A stretch of 64,000 nucleotides of DNA from contig NC_091275.1 in NCBI RefSeq assembly GCF_042100115.1, forward strand, positions 1-64,000, given 5' to 3'. This document shows positions 158 through 64,000 of the stretch, one piece after another (within the stretch, counting starts at the first letter, position 1; every line of letters begins with the position of its first letter). This DNA is from Alternaria dauci (taxonomy: Eukaryota; Ascomycota; Dothideomycetes; Pleosporales; Pleosporaceae). A model generated the notes under the pieces. That model had not been told where the DNA came from. It was given only the letters and a program-made list of their open reading frames with translations, and made no database searches. The position numbers and the translations under genes were made by a program.

Positions 158-1284
158 GGTTACAGCTTCTTAGTTATTTAGGGCTTCTTAGTTACTTAGG
201 GCTTCTTAGTTATTTAGGGCTTCTTAGTTATTTAGGGCTTCTTAGTTACTTAGGGCTTCTTAGTTACTTAAGGCTTCTTAGTTATTTAGGGCTTCTTAGT
301 TACTTAGGGCTTCTTAGTTACTTAGGGCTTCTTAGTTACTTAAGGCTTCTTAGTTATTTAGGGCTTCTTAGTTATTTAGGGCTTCTTAGTTATTTAGGGC
401 TTCTTAGTTATTTAGGGCTTCTTAGTTACTTAGGGCTTCTTAGTTACTTAGGGCTTCTTAGTTACTTAGGGCTTCTTAGTTACTTAGGGCTTCTTAGTTA
501 CTTAGGGCTTCTTAGTTATTTAGGGCTTCTTAGTTATTTAGGGCTTCTTAGTTATTTAGGGCTTCTTAGTTATTTAGGGCTTCTTAGTTATTTAGGGCTT
601 CTTAGTTACTTAGGGCTTCTTAGTTACTTAGGGCTTCTTAGTTATTTAGGGCTTCTTAGTTACTTAGGGCTTCTTAGTTACTTAGGGCTTCTTAGTTATT
701 TAGGGCTTCTTAGTTACTTAGGGCTTCTTAGTTACTTAGGGCTTCTTAGTTACTTAGGGCTTCTTAGTTACTTAGGGCTTCTTAGTTACTTAGGGCTTCT
801 TAGTTATTTAGGGCTTCTTAGTTATTTAGGGCTTCTTAGTTATTTAGGGCTTCTTAGTTATTTAGGGCTTCTTAGTTATTTAGGGCTTCTTAGTTACTTA
901 GGGCTTCTTAGTTACTTAGGGCTTCTTAGTTACTTAGGGCTTCTTAGTTATTTAGGGCTTCTTAGTTATTTAGGGCTTCTTAGTTACTTAGGGCTTCTTA
1001 GTTATTTAGGGCTTCTTAGTTATTTAGGGCTTCTTAGTTACTTAGGGCTTCTTAGTTACTTAGGGCTTCTTAGTTATTTAGGGCTTCTTAGTTACTTAGG
1101 GCTTCTTAGTTACTTAAGGCTTCTTAGTTATTTAGGGCTTCTTAGTTACTTAGGGCTTCTTAGTTACTTAGGGCTTCTTAGTTACTTAGGGCTTCTTAGT
1201 TACTTAGGGCTTCTTAGTTACTTAAGGCTTCTTAGTTATTTAGGGCTTCTTAGTTACTTAGGGCTTCTTAGTTACTTAAGGCTT
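158..1284. repeat. 18-bp satellite with internal TTAGGG, about 62 units
   Basis: Tandem copies of TTAGGGCTTCTTAGTTAC, or the same with a final T. A minority carry TTAAGG in place of TTAGGG. The hexamer lies on the plus strand, opposite in orientation to the adjacent CCCTAA telomere. The same satellite opens units 2 and 3 with far fewer copies. Nothing in it codes for protein. Confidence 0.95.
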
Positions 1285-2710
1285 TTAAGATTAATTTATA
1301 TTAAAGTTAAAGTAAAATAGTAGTAAAGTTTATATTTATTTTATTCTTATAATATTATTAGCTATATAGTAATATAAATAATAAAACTATATACTTTAGA
1401 AATAAATCTTACTATTAGTAATAAAGGATTTAAAAAACTATACTAACTATTACTTAAAATACTTAAAAACTCTTTTTTTAAATAAAATAAAAAAAAATTT
1501 ATTTTTACCTTAAATCTTTTATTAACTTTTAATAAATACTACTTTTAAAATTATTTCTTTCTACTAGTTTACTTAATTAAAAATAGCTATATAGTTAGAA
1601 GTAGTATATAAGGGGCTACGCTTAGGGAGCTATTATATAAGTATACTATTATTATATTTAATAAGGAAAGAAGCTAAGGAAAACTATAGTCTAAAGGCTA
1701 TTTAGGAGGTAGTAGCTTAGAGTATTATTTATCTAGTATACTAGTATAGAATCTAGGTTAACTACTAACTACTTAGATTCTATAAGTAGTATACCTTATA
1801 TATATAACTAAGATCTTATTAAGGAATAAGCTAATTTAAGCTTTAGCCTATTATATAGTAAGTTAATTAGAAGTAACTAGTTATTATAAAATAATAAATT
1901 ATAAAAAACTACTTCTTATTTTTTAAATAACTATACTTAGTAGTTACTAATACTTTATTATACTTTTTTTTCTTAAAGAAAAAATACTAAATTTTTATAA
2001 AATATTTTTTATTTTAAAGTATTAAATATTTTATTCTTTTACTTTATAAATATCTTTATCTTAAATATAAGTTATACTCTTTTCTTCTTTTTATAAAGTA
2101 GTTAAAAGTTATTAAATCTAAGTAAACCTTTATATAAGAATATAGATAAATAAAAAAGTAAAAAAATCTTATTTAATATATTACTATATACTATATACTT
2201 ACCCTTAGTTAAGTAAAATAAATAACTTTTTTTAAAAGGTTTCTTAATTATAGTAAAACTTTATAAATTCTTAATCTTTATTTAAGTTTTATATATAGTA
2301 GTATAAATTTCTTTTATAAAGATAATATAAGAAAGTCTTACTTAGTAGTAACTAGTATTTAGTTAATATAGCTTTAAACTATCTTTACTTATTACTTAAT
2401 TAAATACTTAATAACTTTATTCTTACTTTAGTATTTATTATTCTACTTATTTAAATAAAATTTAATTTAACTAGCTTTATTTTATACTTTTTCTTTATTT
2501 ATTACTTTATTATTATAAAGTAAAAGTAGTCTAGTTTTATTACTTCTATAGTAATATTATTAAATAATAAATAAGAAAGAAAAAAATTAATTATTATAAA
2601 TATATTTAGTAGAAAGTATATTTTTTAAAGATATAGTAAAAGGATTACTAACTATTTATACTAATAGATATATAAATTTTTAAAAGATTAGGTAATACTA
2701 ACTTTAATAT
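1285..2710. other. Extremely AT-rich, gene-free block, RIP-like
   Basis: This 1.4-kb stretch is almost entirely A and T, has almost no CpG, and stops occur in all frames. It sits between the satellite and the 22-bp array and recurs in the same place in units 2 and 3. Between copies it carries clustered differences, mostly G/A and C/T transitions (for example around 1600-1850 against 28210-28470). This fits repeat-induced point mutation, a fungal process that turns C:G into T:A in duplicated DNA. I see no recognisable ancestral gene. A natural AT-rich origin or structural element is the alternative. Confidence 0.75.
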
Positions 2711-3729
2711 TTATTAAAAGTTACTATAATATAAACCTTAACTTACTATAATATAAACCTTAACTTACTATAATATAAACCTTAACTTACTATAATATAA
2801 ACCTTAACTTACTATAATATAAACCTTAACTTACTATAATATAAACCGTAACTTGCTGTAACATGAACCTTAACTTACTGTAACATCAACCTTAACTTAC
2901 GGCAACATCAACCGCAACTTACTGCAATATTAACCGCAACTTACTGTAACATGAACCTCAACTTGCTGCAACATAAACCTCAACTTGCTGCAACATCAAC
3001 CGCAACTTGCTGCAACATAAACCTCAACTTGCTGCAACATGAACCTCAACTTGCTGCAACATAAACCTCAACTTGCTGCAACATGAACCTCAACTTGCGG
3101 CAACATCAACCGCAACTTGCTGCAACATCAACCGCAACTTGCTGCAACATGAACCTCAACTTGCGGCAACATCAACCGCAACTTGCTGCAACATGAACCT
3201 CAACTTGCTGCAACATGAACCTCAACTTGCTGCAACATCAACCGCAACTTGCTGCAACATGAACCTCAACTTGCTGCAACATTAACTGCAACTTGCTGTA
3301 ACATTAACCGCAACTTGCTGTAATATGAACCTCAACTTGCGGCAACATCAACCGCAACTTGCTGCAACATTAACCGCAACTTGCTGCAACATGAACCTCA
3401 ACTTGCTGCAACATTAACCGCAACTTACTGCAACATCAACCGCAACTTGCTGCAACATGAACCTCAACTTGCTGCAACATCAACCGCAACTTGCTGCAAC
3501 ATGAACCTCAACTTGCTGCAACATTAACTGCAACTTGCTGTAACATTAACCGCAACTTGCTGTAATATGAACCTCAACTTGCGGCAACATCAACCGCAAC
3601 TTGCTGCAACATTAACCGCAACTTGCTGCAACATGAACCTCAACTTGCTGCAACATTAACCGCAACTTACTGCAACATCAACCGCAACTTGCTGCAACAT
3701 GAACCTCAACTTGCTGCAACATCAACCGT
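2711..3729. repeat. 22-bp minisatellite with a graded RIP-like left edge
   Basis: About 46 tandem 22-bp units. The intact type reads CTTGCTGCAACATGAACCTC plus two bases, with variants ATCAACCGC and ATTAACCGC. The first five to seven units read CTTACTATAATATAAACCTT: every difference from the intact type is C to T or G to A. Units between about 2845 and 2950 are intermediate. An 11-unit block (242 bp) is duplicated, starting at about 3281 and again at about 3523. Short open frames through it are products of the repeat. Confidence 0.93.
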
Positions 3730-4282
3730 GATATATCGTAATGTATAATACAACATACTATAGTACATATTACCAACTATTGTACCACCTATTGTACCTT
3801 ACTATACTACATATTACAGCTTTATACACCCGTATAAGTTCTACATACAGTATATTATTACTTCTCCTCCAAAATCCTCTTCTGCCTTAACTCCTCTTCT
3901 CCCCAACGTAGCCGCAACTCTCCAGAACCGCTTGAAGTTCAGGGCTTTACTTCCAACCCATCTATTGTCAAACATATACAGCTGCATACGGTGAACTCAA
4001 GGTGTTTAGGAAACACACCTTTACCGCGATTTATTACAGTGTCTTTCAACAGTGTTGTGCTTGCGTCTTTTACCAGCACGTTTATTATTTTGATACAGTG
4101 TATTATCACTTTAAGAGGAATAGAGTAAGCGCATAAACTCTTACTCTACTACTTCTCTTCATTACTACGTACTGGCTTTCAAAGAACAAGAAGAGATCGA
4201 TATTAGCCTAGTCCCACACTATCCTACTGGGAGGCTTGTCTTCCTTGATCTCCAAATCACCTCCAGCGTCTCTAGAACCTTT
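3730..4282. other. Non-coding stretch downstream of gene A
   Basis: This region lies between the 22-bp array and the stop codon of gene A and should hold the 3' untranslated region of that gene. The left third is AT-rich with repeated TATTGTACC words. A small hairpin (AAGGTGT and ACACCTT arms) lies at 3999-4021. No coding sequence is supported on either strand. Confidence 0.6.
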
Positions 4283-7200
4283 TCAATCGTACTGGTTCCA
4301 GTCGTGTGCTACGTTGCTGCACTGATCTCCACCGTGACCCTCATCATTGCCGGCGTGATCCTCATCATCGTCAGCGTGATCCTCACCCTCTGGCTTGTCC
4401 TTGGCTTCGTCTCCACCATCGTCGGCGTGATCCTCACCCTCTGGCTTGTCCTTGGCTTCGTCTCCACCATCGTCGGCATGATCCTCACCCTCTGGCTTGT
4501 CCTTGGCTTCGTCTCCACCATCGTCGGCGTGATCCTCACCCTCTGGCTTGTCCTTGGCTTCGTCTCCACCATCGTCGGCGTGATCCTCACCCTCTGGCTT
4601 GTCCTTGGCGTCATCCCGATTCCAGTCATCTCCACCGGAATAGAAAGGAATCCCATCATCATTTGGCTTGTCCTTGGCGTCATCCCGATTCCAGTCATCT
4701 CCACCGGAATAGAAAGGAACCCCATCATCATTTGGCTTGTCCTTGGCGTCATCCCGATTCCAGTCATCTCCACCGGAATAGAAAGGAACCCCATCATCAT
4801 TTGGCTTGTCCTTGGCGTCATCCCGATTCCAGTCATCTCCACCGGAATAGAAATCAATTCCATCACCGTCGACGGGGGAGGCTGTGGAAAATGTGGGGAG
4901 AGGTCCGTAGTTGGCATCGGGAAACATCTTTATGGGCTCTTCAGTGGCCTGAGAGCCCGCAGCGAAGGCCTCTATATGCTCGGCGACATTGAACGGGGGG
5001 TTGAACTCGCACCAACCTTGAGCCAATTCTGGATCAACGTGCAATTGGATGGCGGATTTTCGGTCTAGGCACCATTTCCAAACCTTGTAGTAGGCGAGCT
5101 TGACGTACCGCTTGTCCTTGTCGGTCGCACCAGTGTATTCGGCGAGGACGCTCACAGGATTACCAACGATAACGAGGAGGGAACGCGCGCGTCCAACGGC
5201 TAGGAGCATTCGTGTGGTATGCTTGACGAAACCGAGGTCGCCAGCGTTGGTGGTGTCGAATACAATACCTTCCTTCTCGGCGCCCTGCATTTTGTCGACT
5301 GTGAAGACTTCGACGTCTCGCAGCTGGACGCTAAGTTTGAACAGCTCCTCCTCGTCAACCTGATTGGCTAAGTGCTCCATGAATCTAGCCAATACGAAGC
5401 GGATAGCGGCAACTTGCGCTACATACGGGGTGATGATAGCGACCTGCTTACCAGAAAACCCGCCAGCGATCATCTTGCAGACGGCCCGGAGGGTATAGGG
5501 AATGAAGTCCTTGTTGTAGCGAGACTTGGTGGCACCGACGATGTCGTGGCTACCTTTGACGCTGACGAAGATGACGCGATGGCCGGAGGAAATGTTGAAC
5601 TGCTCCATCGCGATCTCCATGGCGCGAATGTTTTCTTCCCGGTCATCTACCCCGGGGGCCACTTCCATACGGCCACGAGGAAGGATGTGGTTGGTGAGAG
5701 CGTTGATGTCGGAATTGAAGCGGTACTGTGTGTGCAGGTAAATAGTGGTACAGCCGCCTAGCATCGCACGATGGAAGAAAGGTAGGTCCTGCTGATCACT
5801 GAAGACGTGACGTTCCTCCGAACCACCGGCAGCAGAAGGCTTTGGCTGATGGATATCGCCGAAGAACAGGTGGGGTGTTATGGCCTTGCGCTCGACCATC
5901 AGCGGGCCCTCGTTATTATAGGCGTGCGTGTACACGAGAGGAGCGAGCGTGCTTGACTCGCTTGACTTGCCAGCCTCGTCGTGATGAACGGCATACGGCT
6001 GCTCGAGCGTATGAGTACGCGGCTGCGAGATTACGTCGGAGGTCATGCCAATGGCTACGGCCAGTTGAGCGAGGTCCCTAATGATCTCGTTGGTGAGAGC
6101 AGTCAGTCGGCGCATGTCATCGGCGTCGAATTCTTGGCCTGAAGCATAGAGGTCGAGCTGAAAACGGAAATCGCGGTACTTTTTTGGTTGGGCGATTTCG
6201 TGTACCACTAACTCGTTCGTATCGGCATTACGCTCCGGCACTCCGGCGAGGCGCAGAACCCACGCACCCTCCGACAGCATTTCCAACTGAAGTCGCTTGT
6301 CGGTGAAAGACGACTTTGTCTCGGACGTCTCAAGAAGGATGCGGAATTGCGAGTCCACTGTCAGTGCGTCAAGGAACGCCATGGTCCGCCTGTCTTCACT
6401 GGACTTCTCCTGGTAAGCCGCTGCCTGCTCTTTCAGCTGGTCCTTGGTGAAGTGCTCTTCTTCGATGTATTCAAAGTAGGGCGGCTTCTCGTTCTTTAGC
6501 AGGACGTTGCGAGCAGCTTCGGACTCCTTGCGAACAACCGCTGTCTCCGTCTCTTTCATATGGCGTCGGATTACGATAGGGAAACGTGCCTGGATGCCAG
6601 CGGCCTTGAGCTCCTTCCGTCGCTCTAGGCAGGCCGTGTAGATCCTGAGCATAGCGTCGTCGAGCTGCTTGTTCAACGGCGACGTGACCCAGAAAGCAGC
6701 AAGGCGACCAAGGCCATGGATAACGCCAGTTTGTTGAGCCTCGTAGTGCGCAACAGCCAGAGCCTCGATGATGCGTGTCTTGCCAACGCCACCAGGACCT
6801 TGGATGAGCGCTACACCACCGGCAAGGGCGCGAAGCTTCTGCAAAACGTCGGGTTGGAGTGAGCGGTTCAGACGCTCCATGATGCTGTCCTTAGCACCGT
6901 TGTCTCCCAAATACGCGAACATGCCGGCGAAGTAGTCCACGATCTTGTCGTCTGGGAAGCGAAGGTAGGAGTTGTGGAGGATTTGAGTGACATCGCTAAA
7001 GGCATCGCCGCCTCGGAAGTAATGGTTAAGGGCGTTGATCTGGCGCTTGATTCCCACGGTGGCAGGGTTCAAGCGAGCAAAGACGTAGATGCCGCGAAGC
7101 TTACGCAATGCCTCTTCAGCTTCAGGCAAAGTACGATAGTTAAATGCACAGCTGTAGTGAACGCCCTCCTTGAACAGGGGCTGCTCGGCGAAGGATGCAC

Positions 7201-8689
7201 CCAAGCGAGGGCGGTAGAGAAAGCCGCCTATGTAGCTAGCGGGCGTGATGCCTGCGGACGGTTTGATCTCAAATCGCCAGGTGTCCGCTTGCTCCTGGTA
7301 GGGACTGAACTGGATGTCCACGAAGGCGCCCTCGCGGTAGCTGGCGCCCTCTGGTACCCTGAGCTCGGCGTAGTATAACCGGTCACCGCCGCCGCGAACC
7401 TTCATAATCTTGGTGTCGGTGATCTCGAAACCCTTCTGCTTGGCGGCCTTGCGCAGTTCGTGGACAAGGTTCTGGTAGTGCACGGTGACGTACTGTGTGT
7501 TGTTCTGGAATGCCCACTGGGGAGGGACCTTGAATCCTTTCGGCTGCTTGTCGACAGAGATCTCCATGCCAGTCTGAGGGTTGACACGACAGTCCTTCCA
7601 GTAGAGCAGAATCGGGTCGTTCTTGTATTGAGCTTGCATCTCTTTGTACACGGTATCCATGCGCTCTTGTGCTGACTCTGTGGCGACCGTGAAGAAGTGC
7701 AGCACGGTGCCCTCGCCGCCATTCTCGAGGATATCGCGAGCACGATGGATGACTTCATCGAAGATCCCAAAGTTCTGGTGGGAGAAGAACCCCAATCCGT
7801 AGAGGGGGCGGGAGTTCAGAGGTTGTCCGTCAGGTTGTTCGGTTTGGAGGTCGAAGCGGAAGTGTAGGAGCATCCCTAGTTCGCTGAGTGCAAGCTTACT
7901 AGCAGCTCGCTTAACATCTTCTTGGGAAACCCTTGAGGTGAAGAACTCATCGGTGATCTTCATGGGAAGTACAGTGCAGTTGACGATGTTGTGGGCTGTC
8001 AGGGTAATGGAGGCTGCCCGATGAGCGTGGCCACGGAGGGTGATACTAGCGTCGTCGCTCGGATAGGAAATATCCATCTCTACACTAACGGAGGAGACAT
8101 AGTGAGGGATCTTCCGAGTGAATAACTTTGTTGTGAAGCTAGGTTTATCCAGTGGTGGGGCCATGGTTTGGGCAGGAGGAAGCTCGTCTTTGCCATCCTT
8201 GGAGACGTCCTCCTTGGAGACGTCCTCCTTGGAGGCGTCCTCCTTAGGAGCACGAAACTTGCGGGTTTTGATCGGCTGGGGATAGAAGCAATCCGAGGCA
8301 ACGTGGCCGAGACGGTTACAGCCGTTGCACCTAGGGCCCTGGTCTGCTGCTGGCTCACTAGGGCATTGCTTGGAGAGGTGCCCGTGACCACCGCAGTTGA
8401 AGCACTCGTTCGTGGGACAGTCGCGGTAGACATGGCCAACCTCGCCGCAGTTGGAACACGCTTGCTGTTCGAGCTTCTTGGGGCAATCTTTGGCCCTGTG
8501 GCCTGGTTCTTTGCAGGTGAAGCAGGCGTGCTTCTCTCGGTCAGGGGCGTCGGGAAGGCCTCCGAGCTGGACAGAGTCTTTGCCGGGTGCCTCCAAGACA
8601 GCAATGCCCTGGTCGTAGACTTCTGTATCATGCGGCGCCGACGTCGGCCGGTCATTGACCATGTAGTGCATGACAGACTGGTCGGCCAT
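4283..8689 (-). CDS. Gene A: zinc-knuckle SF1 (UPF1-like) helicase
   Basis: The predicted protein has 1468 residues. Four CCHC zinc knuckles (CX2CX4HX4C) lie at residues 56-69, 78-91, 96-109 and 121-134 and predict single-stranded nucleic-acid binding. A superfamily 1 helicase core follows: Walker A GPGGVGKT near residue 630, motif II DEAG near 900, motif III GDIHQPKP near 945, a QYRFN block, motif V VDKMQGAEKEG near 1135 and motif VI VGRARS near 1163. The order matches UPF1/SMG-type 5'-3' helicases. The C-terminus is acidic, with about four 23-residue and five 17-residue repeats. The open frame runs upstream to a TTG at 8719, but the ATG at 8689 (MADQSV) is the first real start codon, and a 5' leader intron lies just upstream. 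It is divergent from gene B. The role is inferred to be DNA or RNA unwinding for element or telomere maintenance; the substrate is unknown. Confidence 0.88.
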   Translation of the reverse strand: MADQSVMHYMVNDRPTSAPHDTEVYDQGIAVLEAPGKDSVQLGGLPDAPDREKHACFTCKEPGHRAKDCPKKLEQQACSNCGEVGHVYRDCPTNECFNCGGHGHLSKQCPSEPAADQGPRCNGCNRLGHVASDCFYPQPIKTRKFRAPKEDASKEDVSKEDVSKDGKDELPPAQTMAPPLDKPSFTTKLFTRKIPHYVSSVSVEMDISYPSDDASITLRGHAHRAASITLTAHNIVNCTVLPMKITDEFFTSRVSQEDVKRAASKLALSELGMLLHFRFDLQTEQPDGQPLNSRPLYGLGFFSHQNFGIFDEVIHRARDILENGGEGTVLHFFTVATESAQERMDTVYKEMQAQYKNDPILLYWKDCRVNPQTGMEISVDKQPKGFKVPPQWAFQNNTQYVTVHYQNLVHELRKAAKQKGFEITDTKIMKVRGGGDRLYYAELRVPEGASYREGAFVDIQFSPYQEQADTWRFEIKPSAGITPASYIGGFLYRPRLGASFAEQPLFKEGVHYSCAFNYRTLPEAEEALRKLRGIYVFARLNPATVGIKRQINALNHYFRGGDAFSDVTQILHNSYLRFPDDKIVDYFAGMFAYLGDNGAKDSIMERLNRSLQPDVLQKLRALAGGVALIQGPGGVGKTRIIEALAVAHYEAQQTGVIHGLGRLAAFWVTSPLNKQLDDAMLRIYTACLERRKELKAAGIQARFPIVIRRHMKETETAVVRKESEAARNVLLKNEKPPYFEYIEEEHFTKDQLKEQAAAYQEKSSEDRRTMAFLDALTVDSQFRILLETSETKSSFTDKRLQLEMLSEGAWVLRLAGVPERNADTNELVVHEIAQPKKYRDFRFQLDLYASGQEFDADDMRRLTALTNEIIRDLAQLAVAIGMTSDVISQPRTHTLEQPYAVHHDEAGKSSESSTLAPLVYTHAYNNEGPLMVERKAITPHLFFGDIHQPKPSAAGGSEERHVFSDQQDLPFFHRAMLGGCTTIYLHTQYRFNSDINALTNHILPRGRMEVAPGVDDREENIRAMEIAMEQFNISSGHRVIFVSVKGSHDIVGATKSRYNKDFIPYTLRAVCKMIAGGFSGKQVAIITPYVAQVAAIRFVLARFMEHLANQVDEEELFKLSVQLRDVEVFTVDKMQGAEKEGIVFDTTNAGDLGFVKHTTRMLLAVGRARSLLVIVGNPVSVLAEYTGATDKDKRYVKLAYYKVWKWCLDRKSAIQLHVDPELAQGWCEFNPPFNVAEHIEAFAAGSQATEEPIKMFPDANYGPLPTFSTASPVDGDGIDFYSGGDDWNRDDAKDKPNDDGVPFYSGGDDWNRDDAKDKPNDDGVPFYSGGDDWNRDDAKDKPNDDGIPFYSGGDDWNRDDAKDKPEGEDHADDGGDEAKDKPEGEDHADDGGDEAKDKPEGEDHADDGGDEAKDKPEGEDHADDGGDEAKDKPEGEDHADDDEDHAGNDEGHGGDQCSNVAHDWNQYD
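4376..4858. repeat. In-frame 51-bp and 69-bp tandem repeats at the 3' end of gene A
   Basis: About five 51-bp units (17 residues, containing EGEDHADDGGDEAKDKP) and about four 69-bp units (23 residues, containing FYSGGDDWNRDDAKDKP) encode the acidic tail of the helicase. They share the AKDKP segment, so one type probably grew out of the other. Unlike most other arrays in the unit, copy number is the same in all three gene copies. Confidence 0.9.
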
Positions 8690-9799
8690 GCTGGACGATA
8701 TGCAAAAACAGAGTTTCAACGGTAGGTGAGACTTTGTTTCTATACGGACAGCACATCGTTAGCAATCGATCAGCGGAACAGGAGGCCACAACAACTTACC
8801 GACAAGGGTCAATGGGTAGGTAGAGATATCGACGTTGAGAGTGGTTTGCTTTCAAGAGAAGCAATTCGGGGAAGGTGTCAAGTAGTTGGTGTGGAGGAAA
8901 GTGTTATTTGTGCAGGACTAGGTAGCGCGAGCGCGAGAGACGCTAACGCCAAGCAAATTTTGCGTTGCTCACCTTGGGTTGTGCGTGAGGAAGCGAGGAG
9001 CAAGATAAAGACACGTGAAAAGAAGGATTGGATGGAGAACGATAGGGACGCGAAGAGGATATGGGGATCACCCGAGTTCTACAAGTTGGTACCAAGAGAC
9101 AGAAGTGGACAGCCAGTCGACCTTTGGGCAATAGGAAGATAACTATCGGACCGGCCATACAAATAAGCGAGGACATGCCAAGGTGAATGGGAGATCTAGC
9201 GAGCGTCAAGGCCACAGCAATGCGCAGCGTGTAGCCGGCTACGTCTTGGCTCTCTCCTTCGCGACTACAGTTAGTCCTACGGCTGGGTGATCCCCATATC
9301 TCTTTTCGCTTTCTTTTGTTTGGTTCTATCAACTTCTATGCTCGATTCAGTTCACGATGACGGCCAGAACTGCGTTTGGGTGATCCCCATGTCTCTCCCT
9401 ACTTTCCCTGCTCCTTGTCTCTCTTCTCCCTCTGCTCGCTTTCTATACACTCGGGTGATCCCCATATCTTTTATCAACTTTCTCTGTTTCGCGCGTACGC
9501 AACGTGAGCCCGCGTCAGAGTCTTGTGCGCTGTACCCGCAATGCTCAACAGTGAGCGCTCACGCCAGAACCGGGTGGCTATACTATGCCCTACTCCTGGT
9601 CATCGTTCTACTAGGCTCAGTACGGGCGACGAGGCTAAAATTACTGGGAGCTTCCCCTTTCACTTTTCACCGCTCTCCGGCTGTTTCCTCGCGCATGTTG
9701 CCACAACACGAACGTTGCGACGCTCGCCGCAACACCACCCACCCACCACGTACCGCAGCATCGTCAACCTGCATACACCTTCTACCACGGGTGACTAGG
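8690..9799. promoter_or_regulatory. Divergent promoter region of genes A and B with a repeated motif
   Basis: The 1.1 kb between the two start codons holds four copies of GGGTGATCCCCATATCT: inverted at 9058-9076, direct at 9285-9301, 9378-9394 (one mismatch) and 9453-9469. The inverted copy and the last direct copy agree over 19 bp (CTCGGGTGATCCCCATATC). The core GGGTGATCCCC is nearly palindromic, as is common for fungal transcription-factor sites. The stretch is open in one plus-strand frame as far as gene B, which gives a false N-terminal extension. Control of the two helicase genes through this motif is an inference. Confidence 0.6.
8740..8799 (-). other. Probable 60-nt intron in the 5' leader of gene A
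   Basis: On the minus strand there is a consensus donor GTAAGT, a branch site TTGCTAACGA and an acceptor CCGTATAG, 60 nt apart. It lies 51 nt upstream of the ATG at 8689. No upstream ATG is seen in frame through the joined exon, so this looks like an intron of the untranslated leader. It also shows that the gene is eukaryotic and transcribed from the shared intergenic region. Confidence 0.7.
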
Positions 9800-14885: not shown

Positions 14886-14936
14886 CGTGATCTAATGACA
14901 TAGTTTTGTACGACGGCTTACGCCGAAAAGTCAGAC

Positions 14937-23014: not shown

Positions 23015-23024
23015 CAGATACGGA

Positions 23025-45345: not shown

Positions 45346-45473
45346 ACAATAAACCGGGTTACCTGACGACCCTGAACTATGCGCTGCGGAAAAAGAGTGA
45401 TGGGCTCGAAGAGCACAATGCTGAGCTTCTAGCGACACTCTACGGAAGTAGTGAGGTAGACGAGAGTTGCTAG

Positions 45474-50010: not shown

Positions 50011-50168
50011 GATGATAAGAACAGTATTATATAAAATAGTACGTTGGCTAAGGGCTGAGGATCTTGTAGGGTAGATCGATAGATGATGATCGAGAATCAC
50101 AATATCCAGTGCAGAGGAAAGAGGAGAGGAACAGTGTCTATTGGGTTAGGGCTAGGGTCAGATACGGA

Positions 50169-52436: not shown

Positions 52437-52594
52437 TGCAACGTTGTTAGAAAGAACACAGAAACTAAGGTAAGTGGAAAAGAGATAAGAGAAGGTAAGA
52501 AAGCAATAGAGAGGTACTACACAAGGTATAAGTAGGCGAGAAGCCGTCTATTCTTGCATAGGCCGCTGTAAGTCTAGCGGTGAGTGTTAGTCAC
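52437..52594. other. Upstream region of gene F, unit 2
   Basis: Counterpart of 25293-25450. No motif is seen. Confidence 0.5.
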
Positions 52595-53406: not shown

Positions 53407-53486
53407 TCTTACCCCTAGGGGTAGACCTCTATAGCTACTCTCTTACCTCTAACCCTATGCTAGTTATACTGTTTACCTCTATAGTA
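53407..53486. other. Degenerate junction between units 2 and 3
   Basis: Same layout as 27269-27346, including CTAACCCTA, with a few substitutions relative to it (for example CCTCTAACCC against ACATCTAACCC). Confidence 0.7.
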
Positions 53487-53568
53487 TTTAGGGCTTCTTA
53501 GTTACTTAAGGCTTCTTAGTTATTTAGGGCTTCTTAGTTACTTAGGGCTTCTTAGTTACTTAAGGCTT
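53487..53568. repeat. 18-bp satellite, unit 3, about 4 units
   Basis: Only four full TTAGGGCTTCTTAGTTAY units and a partial one remain between the junction and the AT-rich block. Confidence 0.93.
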
Positions 53569-54993: not shown

Positions 54994-56012
54994 TTATTAA
55001 AAGTTACTATAATATAAACCTTAACTTACTATAATATAAACCTTAACTTACTATAATATAAACCTTAACTTACTATAATATAAACCTTAACTTACTATAA
55101 TATAAACCTTAACTTACTATAATATAAACCGTAACTTGCTGTAACATGAACCTTAACTTACTGTAACATCAACCTTAACTTACGGCAACATCAACCGCAA
55201 CTTACTGCAATATTAACCGCAACTTACTGTAACATGAACCTCAACTTGCTGCAACATAAACCTCAACTTGCTGCAACATCAACCGCAACTTGCTGCAACA
55301 TAAACCTCAACTTGCTGCAACATGAACCTCAACTTGCTGCAACATAAACCTCAACTTGCTGCAACATGAACCTCAACTTGCGGCAACATCAACCGCAACT
55401 TGCTGCAACATCAACCGCAACTTGCTGCAACATGAACCTCAACTTGCGGCAACATCAACCGCAACTTGCTGCAACATGAACCTCAACTTGCTGCAACATG
55501 AACCTCAACTTGCTGCAACATCAACCGCAACTTGCTGCAACATGAACCTCAACTTGCTGCAACATTAACTGCAACTTGCTGTAACATTAACCGCAACTTG
55601 CTGTAATATGAACCTCAACTTGCGGCAACATCAACCGCAACTTGCTGCAACATTAACCGCAACTTGCTGCAACATGAACCTCAACTTGCTGCAACATTAA
55701 CCGCAACTTACTGCAACATCAACCGCAACTTGCTGCAACATGAACCTCAACTTGCTGCAACATCAACCGCAACTTGCTGCAACATGAACCTCAACTTGCT
55801 GCAACATTAACTGCAACTTGCTGTAACATTAACCGCAACTTGCTGTAATATGAACCTCAACTTGCGGCAACATCAACCGCAACTTGCTGCAACATTAACC
55901 GCAACTTGCTGCAACATGAACCTCAACTTGCTGCAACATTAACCGCAACTTACTGCAACATCAACCGCAACTTGCTGCAACATGAACCTCAACTTGCTGC
56001 AACATCAACCGT
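54994..56012. repeat. 22-bp minisatellite, unit 3
   Basis: Same length, order and graded left edge as in units 1 and 2. Confidence 0.93.
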
Positions 56013-56565
56013 GATATATCGTAATGTATAATACAACATACTATAGTACATATTACCAACTATTGTACCACCTATTGTACCTTACTATACTACATATTAC
56101 AGCTTTATACACCCGTATAAGTTCTACATACAGTATATTATTACTTCTCCTCCAAAATCCTCTTCTGCCTTAACTCCTCTTCTCCCCAACGTAGCCGCAA
56201 CTCTCCAGAACCGCTTGAAGTTCAGGGCTTTACTTCCAACCCATCTATTGTCAAACATATACAGCTGCATACGGTGAACTCAAGGTGTTTAGGAAACACA
56301 CCTTTACCGCGATTTATTACAGTGTCTTTCAACAGTGTTGTGCTTGCGTCTTTTACCAGCACGTTTATTATTTTGATACAGTGTATTATCACTTTAAGAG
56401 GAATAGAGTAAGCGCATAAACTCTTACTCTACTACTTCTCTTCATTACTACGTACTGGCTTTCAAAGAACAAGAAGAGATCGATATTAGCCTAGTCCCAC
56501 ACTATCCTACTGGGAGGCTTGTCTTCCTTGATCTCCAAATCACCTCCAGCGTCTCTAGAACCTTT
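56013..56565. other. Non-coding stretch downstream of gene A, unit 3
   Basis: Counterpart of 3730-4282. No gene is seen. Confidence 0.55.
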
Positions 56566-59500
56566 TCAATCGTACTGGTTCCAGTCGTGTGCTACGTTGC
56601 TGCACTGATCTCCACCGTGACCCTCATCATTGCCGGCGTGATCCTCATCATCGTCAGCGTGATCCTCACCCTCTGGCTTGTCCTTGGCTTCGTCTCCACC
56701 ATCGTCGGCGTGATCCTCACCCTCTGGCTTGTCCTTGGCTTCGTCTCCACCATCGTCGGCATGATCCTCACCCTCTGGCTTGTCCTTGGCTTCGTCTCCA
56801 CCATCGTCGGCGTGATCCTCACCCTCTGGCTTGTCCTTGGCTTCGTCTCCACCATCGTCGGCGTGATCCTCACCCTCTGGCTTGTCCTTGGCGTCATCCC
56901 GATTCCAGTCATCTCCACCGGAATAGAAAGGAATCCCATCATCATTTGGCTTGTCCTTGGCGTCATCCCGATTCCAGTCATCTCCACCGGAATAGAAAGG
57001 AACCCCATCATCATTTGGCTTGTCCTTGGCGTCATCCCGATTCCAGTCATCTCCACCGGAATAGAAAGGAACCCCATCATCATTTGGCTTGTCCTTGGCG
57101 TCATCCCGATTCCAGTCATCTCCACCGGAATAGAAATCAATTCCATCACCGTCGACGGGGGAGGCTGTGGAAAATGTGGGGAGAGGTCCGTAGTTGGCAT
57201 CGGGAAACATCTTTATGGGCTCTTCAGTGGCCTGAGAGCCCGCAGCGAAGGCCTCTATATGCTCGGCGACATTGAACGGGGGGTTGAACTCGCACCAACC
57301 TTGAGCCAATTCTGGATCAACGTGCAATTGGATGGCGGATTTTCGGTCTAGGCACCATTTCCAAACCTTGTAGTAGGCGAGCTTGACGTACCGCTTGTCC
57401 TTGTCGGTCGCACCAGTGTATTCGGCGAGGACGCTCACAGGATTACCAACGATAACGAGGAGGGAACGCGCGCGTCCAACGGCTAGGAGCATTCGTGTGG
57501 TATGCTTGACGAAACCGAGGTCGCCAGCGTTGGTGGTGTCGAATACAATACCTTCCTTCTCGGCGCCCTGCATTTTGTCGACTGTGAAGACTTCGACGTC
57601 TCGCAGCTGGACGCTAAGTTTGAACAGCTCCTCCTCGTCAACCTGATTGGCTAAGTGCTCCATGAATCTAGCCAATACGAAGCGGATAGCGGCAACTTGC
57701 GCTACATACGGGGTGATGATAGCGACCTGCTTACCAGAAAACCCGCCAGCGATCATCTTGCAGACGGCCCGGAGGGTATAGGGAATGAAGTCCTTGTTGT
57801 AGCGAGACTTGGTGGCACCGACGATGTCGTGGCTACCTTTGACGCTGACGAAGATGACGCGATGGCCGGAGGAAATGTTGAACTGCTCCATCGCGATCTC
57901 CATGGCGCGAATGTTTTCTTCCCGGTCATCTACCCCGGGGGCCACTTCCATACGGCCACGAGGAAGGATGTGGTTGGTGAGAGCGTTGATGTCGGAATTG
58001 AAGCGGTACTGTGTGTGCAGGTAAATAGTGGTACAGCCGCCTAGCATCGCACGATGGAAGAAAGGTAGGTCCTGCTGATCACTGAAGACGTGACGTTCCT
58101 CCGAACCACCGGCAGCAGAAGGCTTTGGCTGATGGATATCGCCGAAGAACAGGTGGGGTGTTATGGCCTTGCGCTCGACCATCAGCGGGCCCTCGTTATT
58201 ATAGGCGTGCGTGTACACGAGAGGAGCGAGCGTGCTTGACTCGCTTGACTTGCCAGCCTCGTCGTGATGAACGGCATACGGCTGCTCGAGCGTATGAGTA
58301 CGCGGCTGCGAGATTACGTCGGAGGTCATGCCAATGGCTACGGCCAGTTGAGCGAGGTCCCTAATGATCTCGTTGGTGAGAGCAGTCAGTCGGCGCATGT
58401 CATCGGCGTCGAATTCTTGGCCTGAAGCATAGAGGTCGAGCTGAAAACGGAAATCGCGGTACTTTTTTGGTTGGGCGATTTCGTGTACCACTAACTCGTT
58501 CGTATCGGCATTACGCTCCGGCACTCCGGCGAGGCGCAGAACCCACGCACCCTCCGACAGCATTTCCAACTGAAGTCGCTTGTCGGTGAAAGACGACTTT
58601 GTCTCGGACGTCTCAAGAAGGATGCGGAATTGCGAGTCCACTGTCAGTGCGTCAAGGAACGCCATGGTCCGCCTGTCTTCACTGGACTTCTCCTGGTAAG
58701 CCGCTGCCTGCTCTTTCAGCTGGTCCTTGGTGAAGTGCTCTTCTTCGATGTATTCAAAGTAGGGCGGCTTCTCGTTCTTTAGCAGGACGTTGCGAGCAGC
58801 TTCGGACTCCTTGCGAACAACCGCTGTCTCCGTCTCTTTCATATGGCGTCGGATTACGATAGGGAAACGTGCCTGGATGCCAGCGGCCTTGAGCTCCTTC
58901 CGTCGCTCTAGGCAGGCCGTGTAGATCCTGAGCATAGCGTCGTCGAGCTGCTTGTTCAACGGCGACGTGACCCAGAAAGCAGCAAGGCGACCAAGGCCAT
59001 GGATAACGCCAGTTTGTTGAGCCTCGTAGTGCGCAACAGCCAGAGCCTCGATGATGCGTGTCTTGCCAACGCCACCAGGACCTTGGATGAGCGCTACACC
59101 ACCGGCAAGGGCGCGAAGCTTCTGCAAAACGTCGGGTTGGAGTGAGCGGTTCAGACGCTCCATGATGCTGTCCTTAGCACCGTTGTCTCCCAAATACGCG
59201 AACATGCCGGCGAAGTAGTCCACGATCTTGTCGTCTGGGAAGCGAAGGTAGGAGTTGTGGAGGATTTGAGTGACATCGCTAAAGGCATCGCCGCCTCGGA
59301 AGTAATGGTTAAGGGCGTTGATCTGGCGCTTGATTCCCACGGTGGCAGGGTTCAAGCGAGCAAAGACGTAGATGCCGCGAAGCTTACGCAATGCCTCTTC
59401 AGCTTCAGGCAAAGTACGATAGTTAAATGCACAGCTGTAGTGAACGCCCTCCTTGAACAGGGGCTGCTCGGCGAAGGATGCACCCAAGCGAGGGCGGTAG

Positions 59501-60972
59501 AGAAAGCCGCCTATGTAGCTAGCGGGCGTGATGCCTGCGGACGGTTTGATCTCAAATCGCCAGGTGTCCGCTTGCTCCTGGTAGGGACTGAACTGGATGT
59601 CCACGAAGGCGCCCTCGCGGTAGCTGGCGCCCTCTGGTACCCTGAGCTCGGCGTAGTATAACCGGTCACCGCCGCCGCGAACCTTCATAATCTTGGTGTC
59701 GGTGATCTCGAAACCCTTCTGCTTGGCGGCCTTGCGCAGTTCGTGGACAAGGTTCTGGTAGTGCACGGTGACGTACTGTGTGTTGTTCTGGAATGCCCAC
59801 TGGGGAGGGACCTTGAATCCTTTCGGCTGCTTGTCGACAGAGATCTCCATGCCAGTCTGAGGGTTGACACGACAGTCCTTCCAGTAGAGCAGAATCGGGT
59901 CGTTCTTGTATTGAGCTTGCATCTCTTTGTACACGGTATCCATGCGCTCTTGTGCTGACTCTGTGGCGACCGTGAAGAAGTGCAGCACGGTGCCCTCGCC
60001 GCCATTCTCGAGGATATCGCGAGCACGATGGATGACTTCATCGAAGATCCCAAAGTTCTGGTGGGAGAAGAACCCCAATCCGTAGAGGGGGCGGGAGTTC
60101 AGAGGTTGTCCGTCAGGTTGTTCGGTTTGGAGGTCGAAGCGGAAGTGTAGGAGCATCCCTAGTTCGCTGAGTGCAAGCTTACTAGCAGCTCGCTTAACAT
60201 CTTCTTGGGAAACCCTTGAGGTGAAGAACTCATCGGTGATCTTCATGGGAAGTACAGTGCAGTTGACGATGTTGTGGGCTGTCAGGGTAATGGAGGCTGC
60301 CCGATGAGCGTGGCCACGGAGGGTGATACTAGCGTCGTCGCTCGGATAGGAAATATCCATCTCTACACTAACGGAGGAGACATAGTGAGGGATCTTCCGA
60401 GTGAATAACTTTGTTGTGAAGCTAGGTTTATCCAGTGGTGGGGCCATGGTTTGGGCAGGAGGAAGCTCGTCTTTGCCATCCTTGGAGACGTCCTCCTTGG
60501 AGACGTCCTCCTTGGAGGCGTCCTCCTTAGGAGCACGAAACTTGCGGGTTTTGATCGGCTGGGGATAGAAGCAATCCGAGGCAACGTGGCCGAGACGGTT
60601 ACAGCCGTTGCACCTAGGGCCCTGGTCTGCTGCTGGCTCACTAGGGCATTGCTTGGAGAGGTGCCCGTGACCACCGCAGTTGAAGCACTCGTTCGTGGGA
60701 CAGTCGCGGTAGACATGGCCAACCTCGCCGCAGTTGGAACACGCTTGCTGTTCGAGCTTCTTGGGGCAATCTTTGGCCCTGTGGCCTGGTTCTTTGCAGG
60801 TGAAGCAGGCGTGCTTCTCTCGGTCAGGGGCGTCGGGAAGGCCTCCGAGCTGGACAGAGTCTTTGCCGGGTGCCTCCAAGACAGCAATGCCCTGGTCGTA
60901 GACTTCTGTATCATGCGGCGCCGACGTCGGCCGGTCATTGACCATGTAGTGCATGACAGACTGGTCGGCCAT
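56566..60972 (-). CDS. Gene A, unit 3: zinc-knuckle SF1 helicase
   Basis: The product again reads identical to the other two copies (1468 residues from the ATG at 60972), with the leader intron at 61023-61082. Confidence 0.88.
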   Translation of the reverse strand: MADQSVMHYMVNDRPTSAPHDTEVYDQGIAVLEAPGKDSVQLGGLPDAPDREKHACFTCKEPGHRAKDCPKKLEQQACSNCGEVGHVYRDCPTNECFNCGGHGHLSKQCPSEPAADQGPRCNGCNRLGHVASDCFYPQPIKTRKFRAPKEDASKEDVSKEDVSKDGKDELPPAQTMAPPLDKPSFTTKLFTRKIPHYVSSVSVEMDISYPSDDASITLRGHAHRAASITLTAHNIVNCTVLPMKITDEFFTSRVSQEDVKRAASKLALSELGMLLHFRFDLQTEQPDGQPLNSRPLYGLGFFSHQNFGIFDEVIHRARDILENGGEGTVLHFFTVATESAQERMDTVYKEMQAQYKNDPILLYWKDCRVNPQTGMEISVDKQPKGFKVPPQWAFQNNTQYVTVHYQNLVHELRKAAKQKGFEITDTKIMKVRGGGDRLYYAELRVPEGASYREGAFVDIQFSPYQEQADTWRFEIKPSAGITPASYIGGFLYRPRLGASFAEQPLFKEGVHYSCAFNYRTLPEAEEALRKLRGIYVFARLNPATVGIKRQINALNHYFRGGDAFSDVTQILHNSYLRFPDDKIVDYFAGMFAYLGDNGAKDSIMERLNRSLQPDVLQKLRALAGGVALIQGPGGVGKTRIIEALAVAHYEAQQTGVIHGLGRLAAFWVTSPLNKQLDDAMLRIYTACLERRKELKAAGIQARFPIVIRRHMKETETAVVRKESEAARNVLLKNEKPPYFEYIEEEHFTKDQLKEQAAAYQEKSSEDRRTMAFLDALTVDSQFRILLETSETKSSFTDKRLQLEMLSEGAWVLRLAGVPERNADTNELVVHEIAQPKKYRDFRFQLDLYASGQEFDADDMRRLTALTNEIIRDLAQLAVAIGMTSDVISQPRTHTLEQPYAVHHDEAGKSSESSTLAPLVYTHAYNNEGPLMVERKAITPHLFFGDIHQPKPSAAGGSEERHVFSDQQDLPFFHRAMLGGCTTIYLHTQYRFNSDINALTNHILPRGRMEVAPGVDDREENIRAMEIAMEQFNISSGHRVIFVSVKGSHDIVGATKSRYNKDFIPYTLRAVCKMIAGGFSGKQVAIITPYVAQVAAIRFVLARFMEHLANQVDEEELFKLSVQLRDVEVFTVDKMQGAEKEGIVFDTTNAGDLGFVKHTTRMLLAVGRARSLLVIVGNPVSVLAEYTGATDKDKRYVKLAYYKVWKWCLDRKSAIQLHVDPELAQGWCEFNPPFNVAEHIEAFAAGSQATEEPIKMFPDANYGPLPTFSTASPVDGDGIDFYSGGDDWNRDDAKDKPNDDGVPFYSGGDDWNRDDAKDKPNDDGVPFYSGGDDWNRDDAKDKPNDDGIPFYSGGDDWNRDDAKDKPEGEDHADDGGDEAKDKPEGEDHADDGGDEAKDKPEGEDHADDGGDEAKDKPEGEDHADDGGDEAKDKPEGEDHADDDEDHAGNDEGHGGDQCSNVAHDWNQYD

Positions 60973-62082
60973 GCTGGACGATATGCAAAAACAGAGTTTC
61001 AACGGTAGGTGAGACTTTGTTTCTATACGGACAGCACATCGTTAGCAATCGATCAGCGGAACAGGAGGCCACAACAACTTACCGACAAGGGTCAATGGGT
61101 AGGTAGAGATATCGACGTTGAGAGTGGTTTGCTTTCAAGAGAAGCAATTCGGGGAAGGTGTCAAGTAGTTGGTGTGGAGGAAAGTGTTATTTGTGCAGGA
61201 CTAGGTAGCGCGAGCGCGAGAGACGCTAACGCCAAGCAAATTTTGCGTTGCTCACCTTGGGTTGTGCGTGAGGAAGCGAGGAGCAAGATAAAGACACGTG
61301 AAAAGAAGGATTGGATGGAGAACGATAGGGACGCGAAGAGGATATGGGGATCACCCGAGTTCTACAAGTTGGTACCAAGAGACAGAAGTGGACAGCCAGT
61401 CGACCTTTGGGCAATAGGAAGATAACTATCGGACCGGCCATACAAATAAGCGAGGACATGCCAAGGTGAATGGGAGATCTAGCGAGCGTCAAGGCCACAG
61501 CAATGCGCAGCGTGTAGCCGGCTACGTCTTGGCTCTCTCCTTCGCGACTACAGTTAGTCCTACGGCTGGGTGATCCCCATATCTCTTTTCGCTTTCTTTT
61601 GTTTGGTTCTATCAACTTCTATGCTCGATTCAGTTCACGATGACGGCCAGAACTGCGTTTGGGTGATCCCCATGTCTCTCCCTACTTTCCCTGCTCCTTG
61701 TCTCTCTTCTCCCTCTGCTCGCTTTCTATACACTCGGGTGATCCCCATATCTTTTATCAACTTTCTCTGTTTCGCGCGTACGCAACGTGAGCCCGCGTCA
61801 GAGTCTTGTGCGCTGTACCCGCAATGCTCAACAGTGAGCGCTCACGCCAGAACCGGGTGGCTATACTATGCCCTACTCCTGGTCATCGTTCTACTAGGCT
61901 CAGTACGGGCGACGAGGCTAAAATTACTGGGAGCTTCCCCTTTCACTTTTCACCGCTCTCCGGCTGTTTCCTCGCGCATGTTGCCACAACACGAACGTTG
62001 CGACGCTCGCCGCAACACCACCCACCCACCACGTACCGCAGCATCGTCAACCTGCATACACCTTCTACCACGGGTGACTAGG
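60973..62082. promoter_or_regulatory. Divergent promoter of genes A and B, unit 3
   Basis: Carries the same four GGGTGATCCCCAT motif copies: inverted at 61341-61359 and direct from 61568, 61661 and 61736. Confidence 0.6.
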
Positions 62083-64000
62083 ATGGACGATAACACGCAG
62101 TCACCCGCCCATCCACCGGCAGGCGACCCCAGCTCCCTTAGCTACTCGGGGAACCAAACAGAGATCTTCCGCGGCTTCGGCATCGACGACGCCACCAGAC
62201 AAAAGGAGATAGCCAGGACGATTGACAAGATTCTTGTGGACAACTACCCCGATGCACGCAATCGAGGTGCAGCAAAGCTCAGCGACACTGCCAATGAAGA
62301 CCTGAACAAGAACCTACACGCCCTGGTCTGGAAGTCCGTACCCGACTTCCGCAACGAACCCAAGGCGTGGAGGACAATGGCGATTAGCAAGTTGATCACA
62401 CATTCTCTCAATCGCCTGAGGAAGCGTAAAGCGGAAGGCGACCATGCTAAAGCCCCAACCCCCAACCCCTTGACGGCAACCTCTACACTCCAAAAGCGCG
62501 AGTTATCGCCAGAATCAACGCACAACTCCAAAGACCACCCACCTAAGCGCTCTCGATCCAGAACCGTTCCTACAGGATTCACGCCTACTCCGAACAACGA
62601 CAAGCCTGCTAATCCTCCCATGCCAACCGCTTCAAATCTCGACACACAGGTACATATATGCGCCGTAAAGGATGGAGAGATCAGCGAAGTAGTCAGCATG
62701 GTCGAATTCAGTGACATATGTTGGGAGGGCATCCCCAACTGGGAAAAACTACGCGACGAAGCTGAGCAATGCTACGAAACTGCGCAAGGCCTAGGACTCG
62801 ATGGATTCGACTTCAAGGGCCGCTTGTTTATCGCTCCAAGAGCAAATCAGCATATCGGAATTGGAAGCCAAGGTGGATTCAACTTTGCTATGCGAGAAAT
62901 CCCAGCTGGCACAGCCGTAGTGTTTGTCACGACGGTTAGATTGAACGTAACCGACACGCAAGTTGCCTCCTCCAAAGTCGTCCCGCCAGCAGAGGTGCAA
63001 GATGGTCAGCAACAAGATGCCACCCACATGCAAGTTGCCTCCTCCGAGCCCGCCCCGCCAGCAGAGGTGCAAGGTGACCAGCAACAAGATGCCACCCACA
63101 TGCAAGTTGCCTCCTCCGAGCCCGCCCCGCCAGCAGAGGTGCAAGATGGTCAGCAACAAGATGCCACCCACATGCAAGTTGCCTCCTCCGAGCCCGCCCC
63201 GCCAGCAGAGGTGCAAGGTGACCAGCAACAAGATGCCACCCACATGCAAGTTGCCTCCTCCGAGCCCGCCCCGCCAGCAGAGGTGCAAGATGGTCAGCAA
63301 CAAGATGCCACCCACATGCAAGTTGCCTCCTCCGAGCCCGCCCCGCCAGCAGAGGTGCAAGGTGACCAGCAACAAGATGCCACCCACATGCAAGTTGCCT
63401 CCTCCGAAGCCGTCCCACCGGAAAGTAAGGAGCTTACACCCAAGACACTCAAGGAGATACTAGATTTGGCGGCCAACATACATCCATTATCCTGGTCGAG
63501 GGAAGAATCCACACCTAGCAACAGCGCACACAAGCAGCATCCTGTAGGTCCGTTCTCGTCATACATGTCCAGGAATAACAGCATCGCCTTCCCCCGCACA
63601 CTTCAACCCTCGTCGTTCACACCCGTGAATCTGCTACCGCTCGCCAGACCTGCCAAACCACCGTCCAGCGCACCTAAGTCCTTTCTCAAGTTTGTCGAGA
63701 CCTTCCCTTCTAATAGCTACCACGGTAGCGGACTAGACGACCCAATACATATCAGCGACGATAGTGGTAGCAGCGATTCTAGTGACAGCGAGTCTAGTAA
63801 CAACATGGACATTCTCGTAGACGATGAAGAGGTGCTAGAAGAATGCATGTTAGACGAAGGCGAACCGGAACAACCCCCATTGAACGAACAAGCTAAGACC
63901 CAGGCAAACGCGCATTTCTCGAGCACTATGAAGGTGAAGATGGATGGTATGTCTGCTTTTGCGCACGCGCAAAAGTCGAACATAGACTTGTGGGACTTAG
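62083..64000 (+). CDS. Gene B, unit 3 (partial): SNF2-family ATPase, N-terminal part
   Basis: The frame is open from the ATG at 62083 to the window edge, which falls before the Walker A motif. The 24-residue array has six copies, as in unit 1. Confidence 0.82.
   Translation, partial: MDDNTQSPAHPPAGDPSSLSYSGNQTEIFRGFGIDDATRQKEIARTIDKILVDNYPDARNRGAAKLSDTANEDLNKNLHALVWKSVPDFRNEPKAWRTMAISKLITHSLNRLRKRKAEGDHAKAPTPNPLTATSTLQKRELSPESTHNSKDHPPKRSRSRTVPTGFTPTPNNDKPANPPMPTASNLDTQVHICAVKDGEISEVVSMVEFSDICWEGIPNWEKLRDEAEQCYETAQGLGLDGFDFKGRLFIAPRANQHIGIGSQGGFNFAMREIPAGTAVVFVTTVRLNVTDTQVASSKVVPPAEVQDGQQQDATHMQVASSEPAPPAEVQGDQQQDATHMQVASSEPAPPAEVQDGQQQDATHMQVASSEPAPPAEVQGDQQQDATHMQVASSEPAPPAEVQDGQQQDATHMQVASSEPAPPAEVQGDQQQDATHMQVASSEAVPPESKELTPKTLKEILDLAANIHPLSWSREESTPSNSAHKQHPVGPFSSYMSRNNSIAFPRTLQPSSFTPVNLLPLARPAKPPSSAPKSFLKFVETFPSNSYHGSGLDDPIHISDDSGSSDSSDSESSNNMDILVDDEEVLEECMLDEGEPEQPPLNEQAKTQANAHFSSTMKVKMDGMSAFAHAQKSNIDLWDL
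62974..63405 (+). repeat. 72-bp minisatellite of gene B, unit 3, 6 units
   Basis: Same number and alternation as in unit 1. Confidence 0.95.

Follow-up and report, generated by a model that had tools for sequence, protein, structure and literature searches.

A giant five-gene element with an exact inner terminus at nearly every chromosome end of Alternaria dauci

The first 64 kb of contig 4 of Alternaria dauci (section Porri; NC_091275.1, positions 1 to 64,000; hereafter the window), which form its left end, consist of head-to-tail units of an element of about 25 kb that encodes five proteins (A, B, C, D and F). A complete unit begins on the telomere side with an array of 18-bp repeats and an AT-rich non-coding part, and ends on the centromere side at an exact terminus. 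Units were found at 19 of the 20 chromosome ends in the genome, and the outermost terminus stood on unrelated flanking sequence at each. These observations are probably best explained by a giant mobile element that is specialized for chromosome ends and was added to broken or eroded ends, in the manner of HeT-A and the Terminons, and that is not itself a recognizable retroelement. An earlier note on the window had described the array and its genes; the exact terminus, the truncated joints between units and the genome-wide distribution are new.

Distribution over the chromosome ends

The A. dauci assembly comprises 34.9 Mb in 10 contigs, and a DNA probe for the unit identified 36 copies in it, all in a single polarity relative to the chromosome end. 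The distribution is wider than the window, with nearly every end carrying the element. Ends are named below by contig number and side (C4L stands for contig 4, left side).

Units per chromosome end
C1: left 1, right 4
C2: left 1, right 2
C3: left 1, right 4
C4: left 6, right 1
C5: left 1, right 3
C6: left 1, right 2
C7: left 1, right 0
C8: left 1, right 3
C9: left 1, right 1
C10: left 1, right 1

The counts for C2R, C5R and C6R are lower bounds because these contigs stop inside a unit. The only element-free end, C7R, carried 18S rRNA/ribosomal DNA (rDNA), matching the position of rDNA on Ch07 in section Alternaria according to a published account (PMC13068351). At the gene level, C, D and F were each present in 36 copies (for gene C, 34 complete and 2 cut at contig ends), gene A in 33 (with the N-terminal 786 amino acids (aa) as query), and gene B in 33 plus one cut copy (with an 886-aa core as query). 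Genome-wide searches using parts of all five genes identified no intact copies away from the ends. The end-linked unit proposed in the earlier note was thus recovered on the scale of the genome, rather than as genes scattered singly at internal loci.

The telomere side was assembled at 16 of the element ends, and (CCCTAA)n capped the element in all 16. The distal junction CGGTTACAG linked telomere and element at 15 of these; C5L had one extra C preceding the junction and C2L lacked CGGTTA. The array at C4L contained six units and a stump of 114 bp. Measured from terminus to terminus and leaving out the stump, units in arrays were 23.9-26.1 kb long. Short stacks of telomere repeats, CGGTTACAG and 18-bp repeats were also present inside the end at C3L (369) and C6L (642 and 804); these could be real stacking or assembly noise.

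An exact proximal terminus

The centromere-facing end of the element was exact, with the sequence …CTCTATAGTAT. A search for the terminus CTGTTTACCTCTATAGTAT at up to 2 mismatches returned 42 matches in the genome, 37 of them exact, while the reversed pattern, used as a control, returned 1. The 42 matches were made up of 19 outermost joints, 20 joints between units, and 3 older solo termini located further in. The flank following the last T of the terminus was different at 19 of 19 ends.

At the joints between units, the terminus abutted the 18-bp array of the next unit in 9 of 20 cases, and the distal AT-rich part or a short stump in the other 11. Nine distinct joint points were represented, among them stumps of 114 bp, 236 bp and, in diverged form, 600 bp, and the five joints at C3R and C5R were at one common point or a variant of it. 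The joints consist of an exact terminus on variably truncated units, so that units lose material from their telomere side while the same end is joined every time. There were no runs of telomere repeats in the 60 bases inspected at each of the 20 unit-unit and 19 outermost joints; the 18-bp repeat itself contains one TTAGGG. At C5L the joint interrupts a 186-aa open frame, whose end the element may have cut. Neighboring this frame, next to the element on its inner side (L020:5377-9943), was another SNF2-type ATPase gene, recognized from motifs read by eye and a below-cut-off match to SNF2-rel_dom (E 0.022).

The sequence at the joint

The native sequence preceding the joint could be read where an intact counterpart was available. 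With the 18-bp array set aside, it was TAT at 6 of 7 tandem joint points and AT at 1. Several ends carry subtelomeric duplicates that were cut at different points (C2L/C3R/C8R; C1L/C6L; C9L/C2L; C10L/C2L; C2R/C6L; and the old termini C3R_2/C3L), which provided seven natural empty sites; these had TAT in four (one of them a 7-nt match), AT in one, and neither in two. The total was therefore 10 TAT among 14 readable targets. The two sites with no match were from duplicates of 94% and 88% identity with AT-rich flanks resembling those produced by repeat-induced point mutation (RIP), and were still counted as misses. Two joint types in the 18-bp array were excluded from the 14 strict cases, since the array holds both TAT and TAC and is ambiguous.

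Within the unit, TAT occurs at 1.6% of positions overall and at no more than 8.4% in the most AT-rich part. Even with a background of 10%, the chance of TAT in at least 6 of 7 cases is 6e-6. Either the element targets TAT, or joining is guided by a match of 3 nt.

Organization of the window

The features of the window were as follows (strand given where assigned).

1..156, telomere repeats (CCCTAA)n
157..165, + strand, distal junction CGGTTACAG between telomere and element
165..1284, + strand, tandem array of about 62 copies of the 18-bp repeat GCTTCTTAGTTAYTTAGG
1285..4270, non-coding distal part, AT-rich, GC content 0.29
2721-3728, 22-bp array within the AT-rich distal part
4283..8758, - strand, gene A, CCHC zinc-knuckle and UPF1-type superfamily 1B (SF1B) helicase, open frame of 1491 aa
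9275..14161, + strand, gene B, predicted SNF2-like ATPase, open frame of 1628 aa
10667-11124, in-frame 72-bp repeats within gene B
14477..14887, 68-bp tandem array separating genes B and C
16339..18222, + strand, gene C, frame of 627 aa with no assigned function
18994..22866, - strand, gene D, member of a widespread fungal family, apparently spliced, with a product of about 1,100-1,200 residues
23025..25292, - strand, gene F, apparently three exons, ParB-fold protein, putative distant DUF3723 relative
25486..27302, + strand, 34-bp array whose repeats have the palindromic core GCCCCCGGGGGC, adjacent to gene F and to the terminus
27329..27347, + strand, exact proximal terminus CTGTTTACCTCTATAGTAT of unit 1, abutting the 18-bp array of unit 2
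1-27347, unit 1, complete
27348..53487, + strand, unit 2, distally truncated within its 18-bp array, with the same terminus at its end
53488..64000, + strand, unit 3, distally truncated within its 18-bp array, running past the window to C4:79630

The window thus contains two complete units and part of a third, and the claim of at least three head-to-tail units at the telomere stood. Units 1 and 2 were 99.6% identical over their longest aligned block (10.4 kb). The 18-bp array was the most common place at which older units had been cut, and more cut points were in the first portion of the AT-rich distal part. Tandem repeats within coding sequence had periods of 15, 21 (42), 51, 69, 72 and 78 bp, whereas those of the non-coding arrays were 16, 18, 22, 24, 32, 34 and 68 bp. 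All of the coding periods are multiples of three, which suggests selection on the frames.

Differences among copies and the probable role of recombination

Eight units from seven ends were 0.14-1.54 substitutions per kb apart (C1L-C2L pair, 21.4 kb). Five blocks totaling about 19.4 kb, mostly coding, contained 19 variable sites; when the majority base was treated as the original one, every one of the 19 was a C:G to T:A change, and 16 were in CpA. The coding differences among copies are RIP-type. In-frame stops were present in gene D in 7 of 36 copies and in exon 3 of gene F in 4 of 36, compared to 1 of 33 in the searched part of gene A and 0 of 33 in that of gene B; gene C had none across its 36 copies. 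Some copies are not intact, because the frame of gene A was shorter in 4 of 33 copies (983-998 aa) and that of gene B in 6 of 33 (1191-1239 aa). Most of the differences among the eight units were in a short non-coding stretch (1611-1850 in the window, and its equivalents), with the coding parts nearly identical.

Three of the four units at C1R shared an identical set of stops in gene F, indicating that whole units were copied within an array. A copy of gene F with 35 stops (C8:47944-49026) was located beneath the young unit at C8L, about 2 kb from an old terminus. The element has therefore been resident long enough for addition, mutation and re-covering to have taken place.

The low divergence among units and the shared stops at C1R would also be expected of a passive subtelomeric block like the Y' elements of yeast, without mobility of its own and spread by break-induced replication and unequal exchange, and unequal exchange within the 18-bp array could account for the nine joints located there. 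Recombination, however, brings along the flank of the donor or joins at homology; it does not set the same precise terminus against unrelated sequence at all 19 ends, and it does not explain the stumps of 114-600 bp beneath complete units. A passive block is therefore considered unlikely, though not negligible, and recombination very likely acts afterwards, as a homogenizer of the element.

The encoded proteins

Protein A matched the Pfam families zf-CCHC (1.6e-18) and AAA_12 (3.6e-27), and also AAA_11. It contains four CCHC stretches and an SF1B helicase core whose nearest solved relatives are UPF1/NAM7, in agreement with the zinc-knuckle SF1 helicase of the earlier note. Alignment to homologs placed the start codon of gene A near 8689, the likely position. 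Five homologs were found among 8000 scored candidates drawn from 5.8 billion proteins; according to precomputed annotation, all five have AAA_12 and four have zf-CCHC.

The same note had called protein B an SNF2 ATPase. Weak matches to SWI2/SNF2 models (ZorD, 4e-4; DrmD, 2e-3) and a match to the DNA helicase phrog_62 (3e-8) point the same way, but Pfam (E≤1), NCBIfam and a sequence search of the PDB (E≤10) all returned no match. Together with motifs read by eye, the weak but consistent matches favor a predicted SNF2-like ATPase. Protein C had no Pfam match above cut-offs.

Protein D was the element protein with the most relatives found in other fungi, with 152 homologs at E≤0.001 among 8000 scored candidates. 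Its structural model, built from 68 aligned sequences, was confident (predicted local distance difference test, pLDDT, 80.1; predicted template modeling score, pTM, 0.75) and matched no solved or viral protein, a null result which does not prove that the fold is absent. There was no Pfam match to D above the cut-off; the matches below it were EspB_PPE (0.16), TCAD7 (0.0076) and MANEC (0.023), none of them a reverse transcriptase.

Open reading frames (ORFs) 25403-24741, 24754-24251 and 24329-23025 are most likely the exons of one spliced ParB-like gene F, with the first splice site tentative. A ParB fold was found in the N-domain of a homolog of protein F, giving support at the level of fold to the ParB-like protein noted earlier. 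Among 34 homologs in the F family, 15 matched DUF3723 at E≤0.05 (best 3.2e-5); with scores of 13.6 bits for the A. dauci exon and 19.2 bits for homolog P0127, below the curated cut-off of 22, the family is probably a distant relative of DUF3723. The 34-bp array beside gene F is palindromic (fold z -3.55), and its repeats are candidate binding sites for protein F, by analogy to parS sites for ParB. Near the left end of contig 5 there was a cluster of stop-rich DUF3723 remnants (C5:154239-155535, 192064 and 239729), perhaps an old Starship.

The genome contained 112 matches to RVT_1, the reverse transcriptase family, and none was inside a unit, though a strongly diverged reverse transcriptase could escape such a search. 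A retroelement in disguise, with an unrecognized reverse transcriptase in D or C or one supplied in trans by a host retroelement, as for HeT-A, FoTeR or the Terminons, might account for the distal truncation, the intactness of the proximal side and the short matches at the joints, all of which target-primed reverse transcription can leave, and some of the RVT_1 matches were within open frames of 1391 aa. The presence of genes on both strands, the apparent introns and the unit of about 25 kb argue against such an element, as does the absence of RVT_1 from the units. The lack of Pfam matches above cut-offs for proteins B, C and D and the lack of a solved or viral match to the model of D point in the same direction, and a retroelement was judged improbable.

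Telomerase and chromosome end maintenance

A telomerase RNA-binding domain was found at C8:1169027-1169472 (E 7e-28); the matching sequence contains a single in-frame TAG, which represents an intron or damage. The earlier note had proposed that the element was either selfish or used for telomerase-independent maintenance of the ends. The second option was unsupported, because the telomerase domain is present and canonical telomeres cap all 16 assembled element ends; the first is favored, because the exact terminus stands on unrelated flanks. A system that serves the host in this way would fit the presence of the element at 19 of 20 ends, and tandem amplification at chromosome ends after loss of telomerase is reported for Pyricularia (PMC8381367). 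It is nonetheless very unlikely in view of the telomerase and telomeres, the RIP-type changes in the copies and the stops in gene D. A back-up function in end maintenance is possible.

Assembly of the ends

At C4R, C7L and C9L, DNA of other kinds was present distal to the telomere repeats, consisting at C9L of inverted pieces of the element, and these contig ends are probably chimeric. The extension of about 120 kb that follows the telomere at C3R (beyond approximately 3325700) is probably an assembly chimera with mitochondrial DNA, having cytochrome b near the joint (E 6e-73) and long code-4 frames at the contig end. These four ends, and the three contigs that stop inside a unit, could raise the suspicion that the element is itself an artefact, but one mis-assembly cannot place an identical terminus next to 19 different flanks and also create nine joint points in the arrays, and protein relatives of D and F exist in other fungi and metagenome sets, which makes an artefact highly implausible.

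Proposed addition to broken or eroded ends

If the element is a mobile one specialized for chromosome ends, a broken, eroded or cut end would lose the DNA distal to a TAT, and the exact end of the element would be joined there through the 3-bp match. The element would bring its own telomere, which telomerase would then maintain, and repeated rounds of attachment would build the head-to-tail arrays. Recombination between ends and within arrays would spread and homogenize the coding part. In this process protein F may bind the palindromic repeats that adjoin the exact end, helicase A and the predicted ATPase B may act on DNA at the joint, and proteins D and C may perform or regulate the joining. 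A DNA template is assumed, given that the search revealed no reverse transcriptase in the units.

Several points weigh against addition of the element to ends. The data are from one assembly, several of whose ends look chimeric, and they show neither movement nor a free form of the element, nor an empty allele in a second strain. Among the proteins of the unit, none was recognized as a transposase, integrase, recombinase or polymerase. TAT was missing in 4 of the 14 strict cases, its background was estimated from the unit itself and may be higher in AT-rich host flanks, and microhomology joining of random ends could account for some of these features but would not give the exact terminus. Finally, the 36 copies represent far fewer than 36 independent events, because the copies have been homogenized.

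To our knowledge, every element described so far as being added onto chromosome ends is a retroelement. A five-gene element without a recognizable reverse transcriptase, if it adds to ends, would need other joining chemistry, perhaps through proteins of unknown fold. We tentatively suggest a DNA-based class of eukaryotic element free of reverse transcriptase, forming a chromosome-end cap that bears a telomere at one end and fuses through the other, its joining end, to TAT where chromosomes are broken or cut, and having a widespread D and F core, for which no published description was found; we hold this with less confidence than addition to ends in A. dauci. Proteins D and F provide two markers for finding such a class in long-read fungal genomes. 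The healing of broken ends, the building and truncation of subtelomeres in filamentous fungi, and a selfish supply of chromosome caps all become testable.

Comparison with known elements of chromosome ends

The unit works like an end-attaching element, but it differed in a defining feature from each family with which it was compared and was assigned to none. In mode of action its closest counterparts are HeT-A, the Terminons and MoTeR/FoTeR, all of them retroelements; in appearance they are the Y' elements, TLH and the DHX_G198 group. The view of the earlier note, that the element represents a distinct, larger, non-RecQ class, is supported, its genes being unlike those of Y', TLH and the telomeric retroelements. 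HeT-A, TART and TAHRE of Drosophila are non-long-terminal-repeat retroelements that replace telomerase and form end-added, head-to-tail arrays with an intact proximal end and distal truncation. The A. dauci element has a similar arrangement, but it is of about 25 kb and occurs alongside canonical telomeres and a telomerase domain, with no reverse transcriptase found. The Y' elements of budding yeast, which hold a single helicase gene in 5-7 kb and spread by recombination, are likewise helicase-coding, telomere-adjacent, tandem, of one polarity, homogenized and present at many ends, whereas the A. dauci unit is 23.9-26.1 kb with five genes and has an exact terminus on unrelated flanks. Starships are giant mobile elements of fungi with a DUF3435 tyrosine recombinase as captain. 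The size of the A. dauci element and the putative distant relationship of F to DUF3723 are similar, but Starships are found at internal sites and the element is at chromosome ends. No match to DUF3435 was found in the 8 main ORFs or exons and 8 of the 39 further ORFs of the unit; the genome was not searched for DUF3435.

The Terminons of bdelloid rotifers, of up to 40 kb, carry accessory genes and a Penelope-type reverse transcriptase, form head-to-tail arrays with distal truncation at chromosome ends, and attach via reverse-complement telomere repeats at the 3' end (PMC6431247). The A. dauci element is also giant, with several genes, arrays and distal truncation at chromosome ends, but neither a Penelope-type reverse transcriptase nor that form of attachment was found in it. 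In fungi, FoTeR elements measure 4.3-7.3 kb, carry an ORF for a reverse transcriptase and are bordered on both sides by telomere-like repeats (PMC12857005), and copies of MoTeR are separated by telomere tracts (PMC8381367). Both resemble the A. dauci element in their truncated copies and arrays at chromosome ends of fungi, but no telomere run was present between its units or at its proximal end. The TLH regions and the DHX_G198 group of Colletotrichum higginsianum comprise a block of 11.3-18.5 kb found in one orientation at all 24 subtelomeres, with a RecQ-like helicase and DUF3505 and a single full-length copy per end (PMC5576322). This block is similar to the A. dauci element as a long conserved end block in one orientation; in A. 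dauci, in contrast, helicase A is of the UPF1 type (AAA_12/AAA_11) and B is predicted to be SNF2-like, rather than RecQ, and the portion of that source available mentions no exact terminus.

Relatives in other fungi

Proteins D and F have relatives in other fungi and among metagenome sequences; those of D included Pyrenochaeta, Fusarium, Metarhizium and Colletotrichum among the 120 matches listed. In two cases, homologs of D and F were on contigs of equal size (17,980 and 12,612 bp), which suggests linkage. Two gene models of A. alternata (P0148 and P0149) fuse F with D, indicating that the two genes are adjacent in that species as well; P0148 was 53% identical to D over 308 aligned positions, and P0149 aligned in two blocks. 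One homolog of D (P0117) was labeled as part of a bacterial metagenome bin and is probably fungal DNA within that bin.

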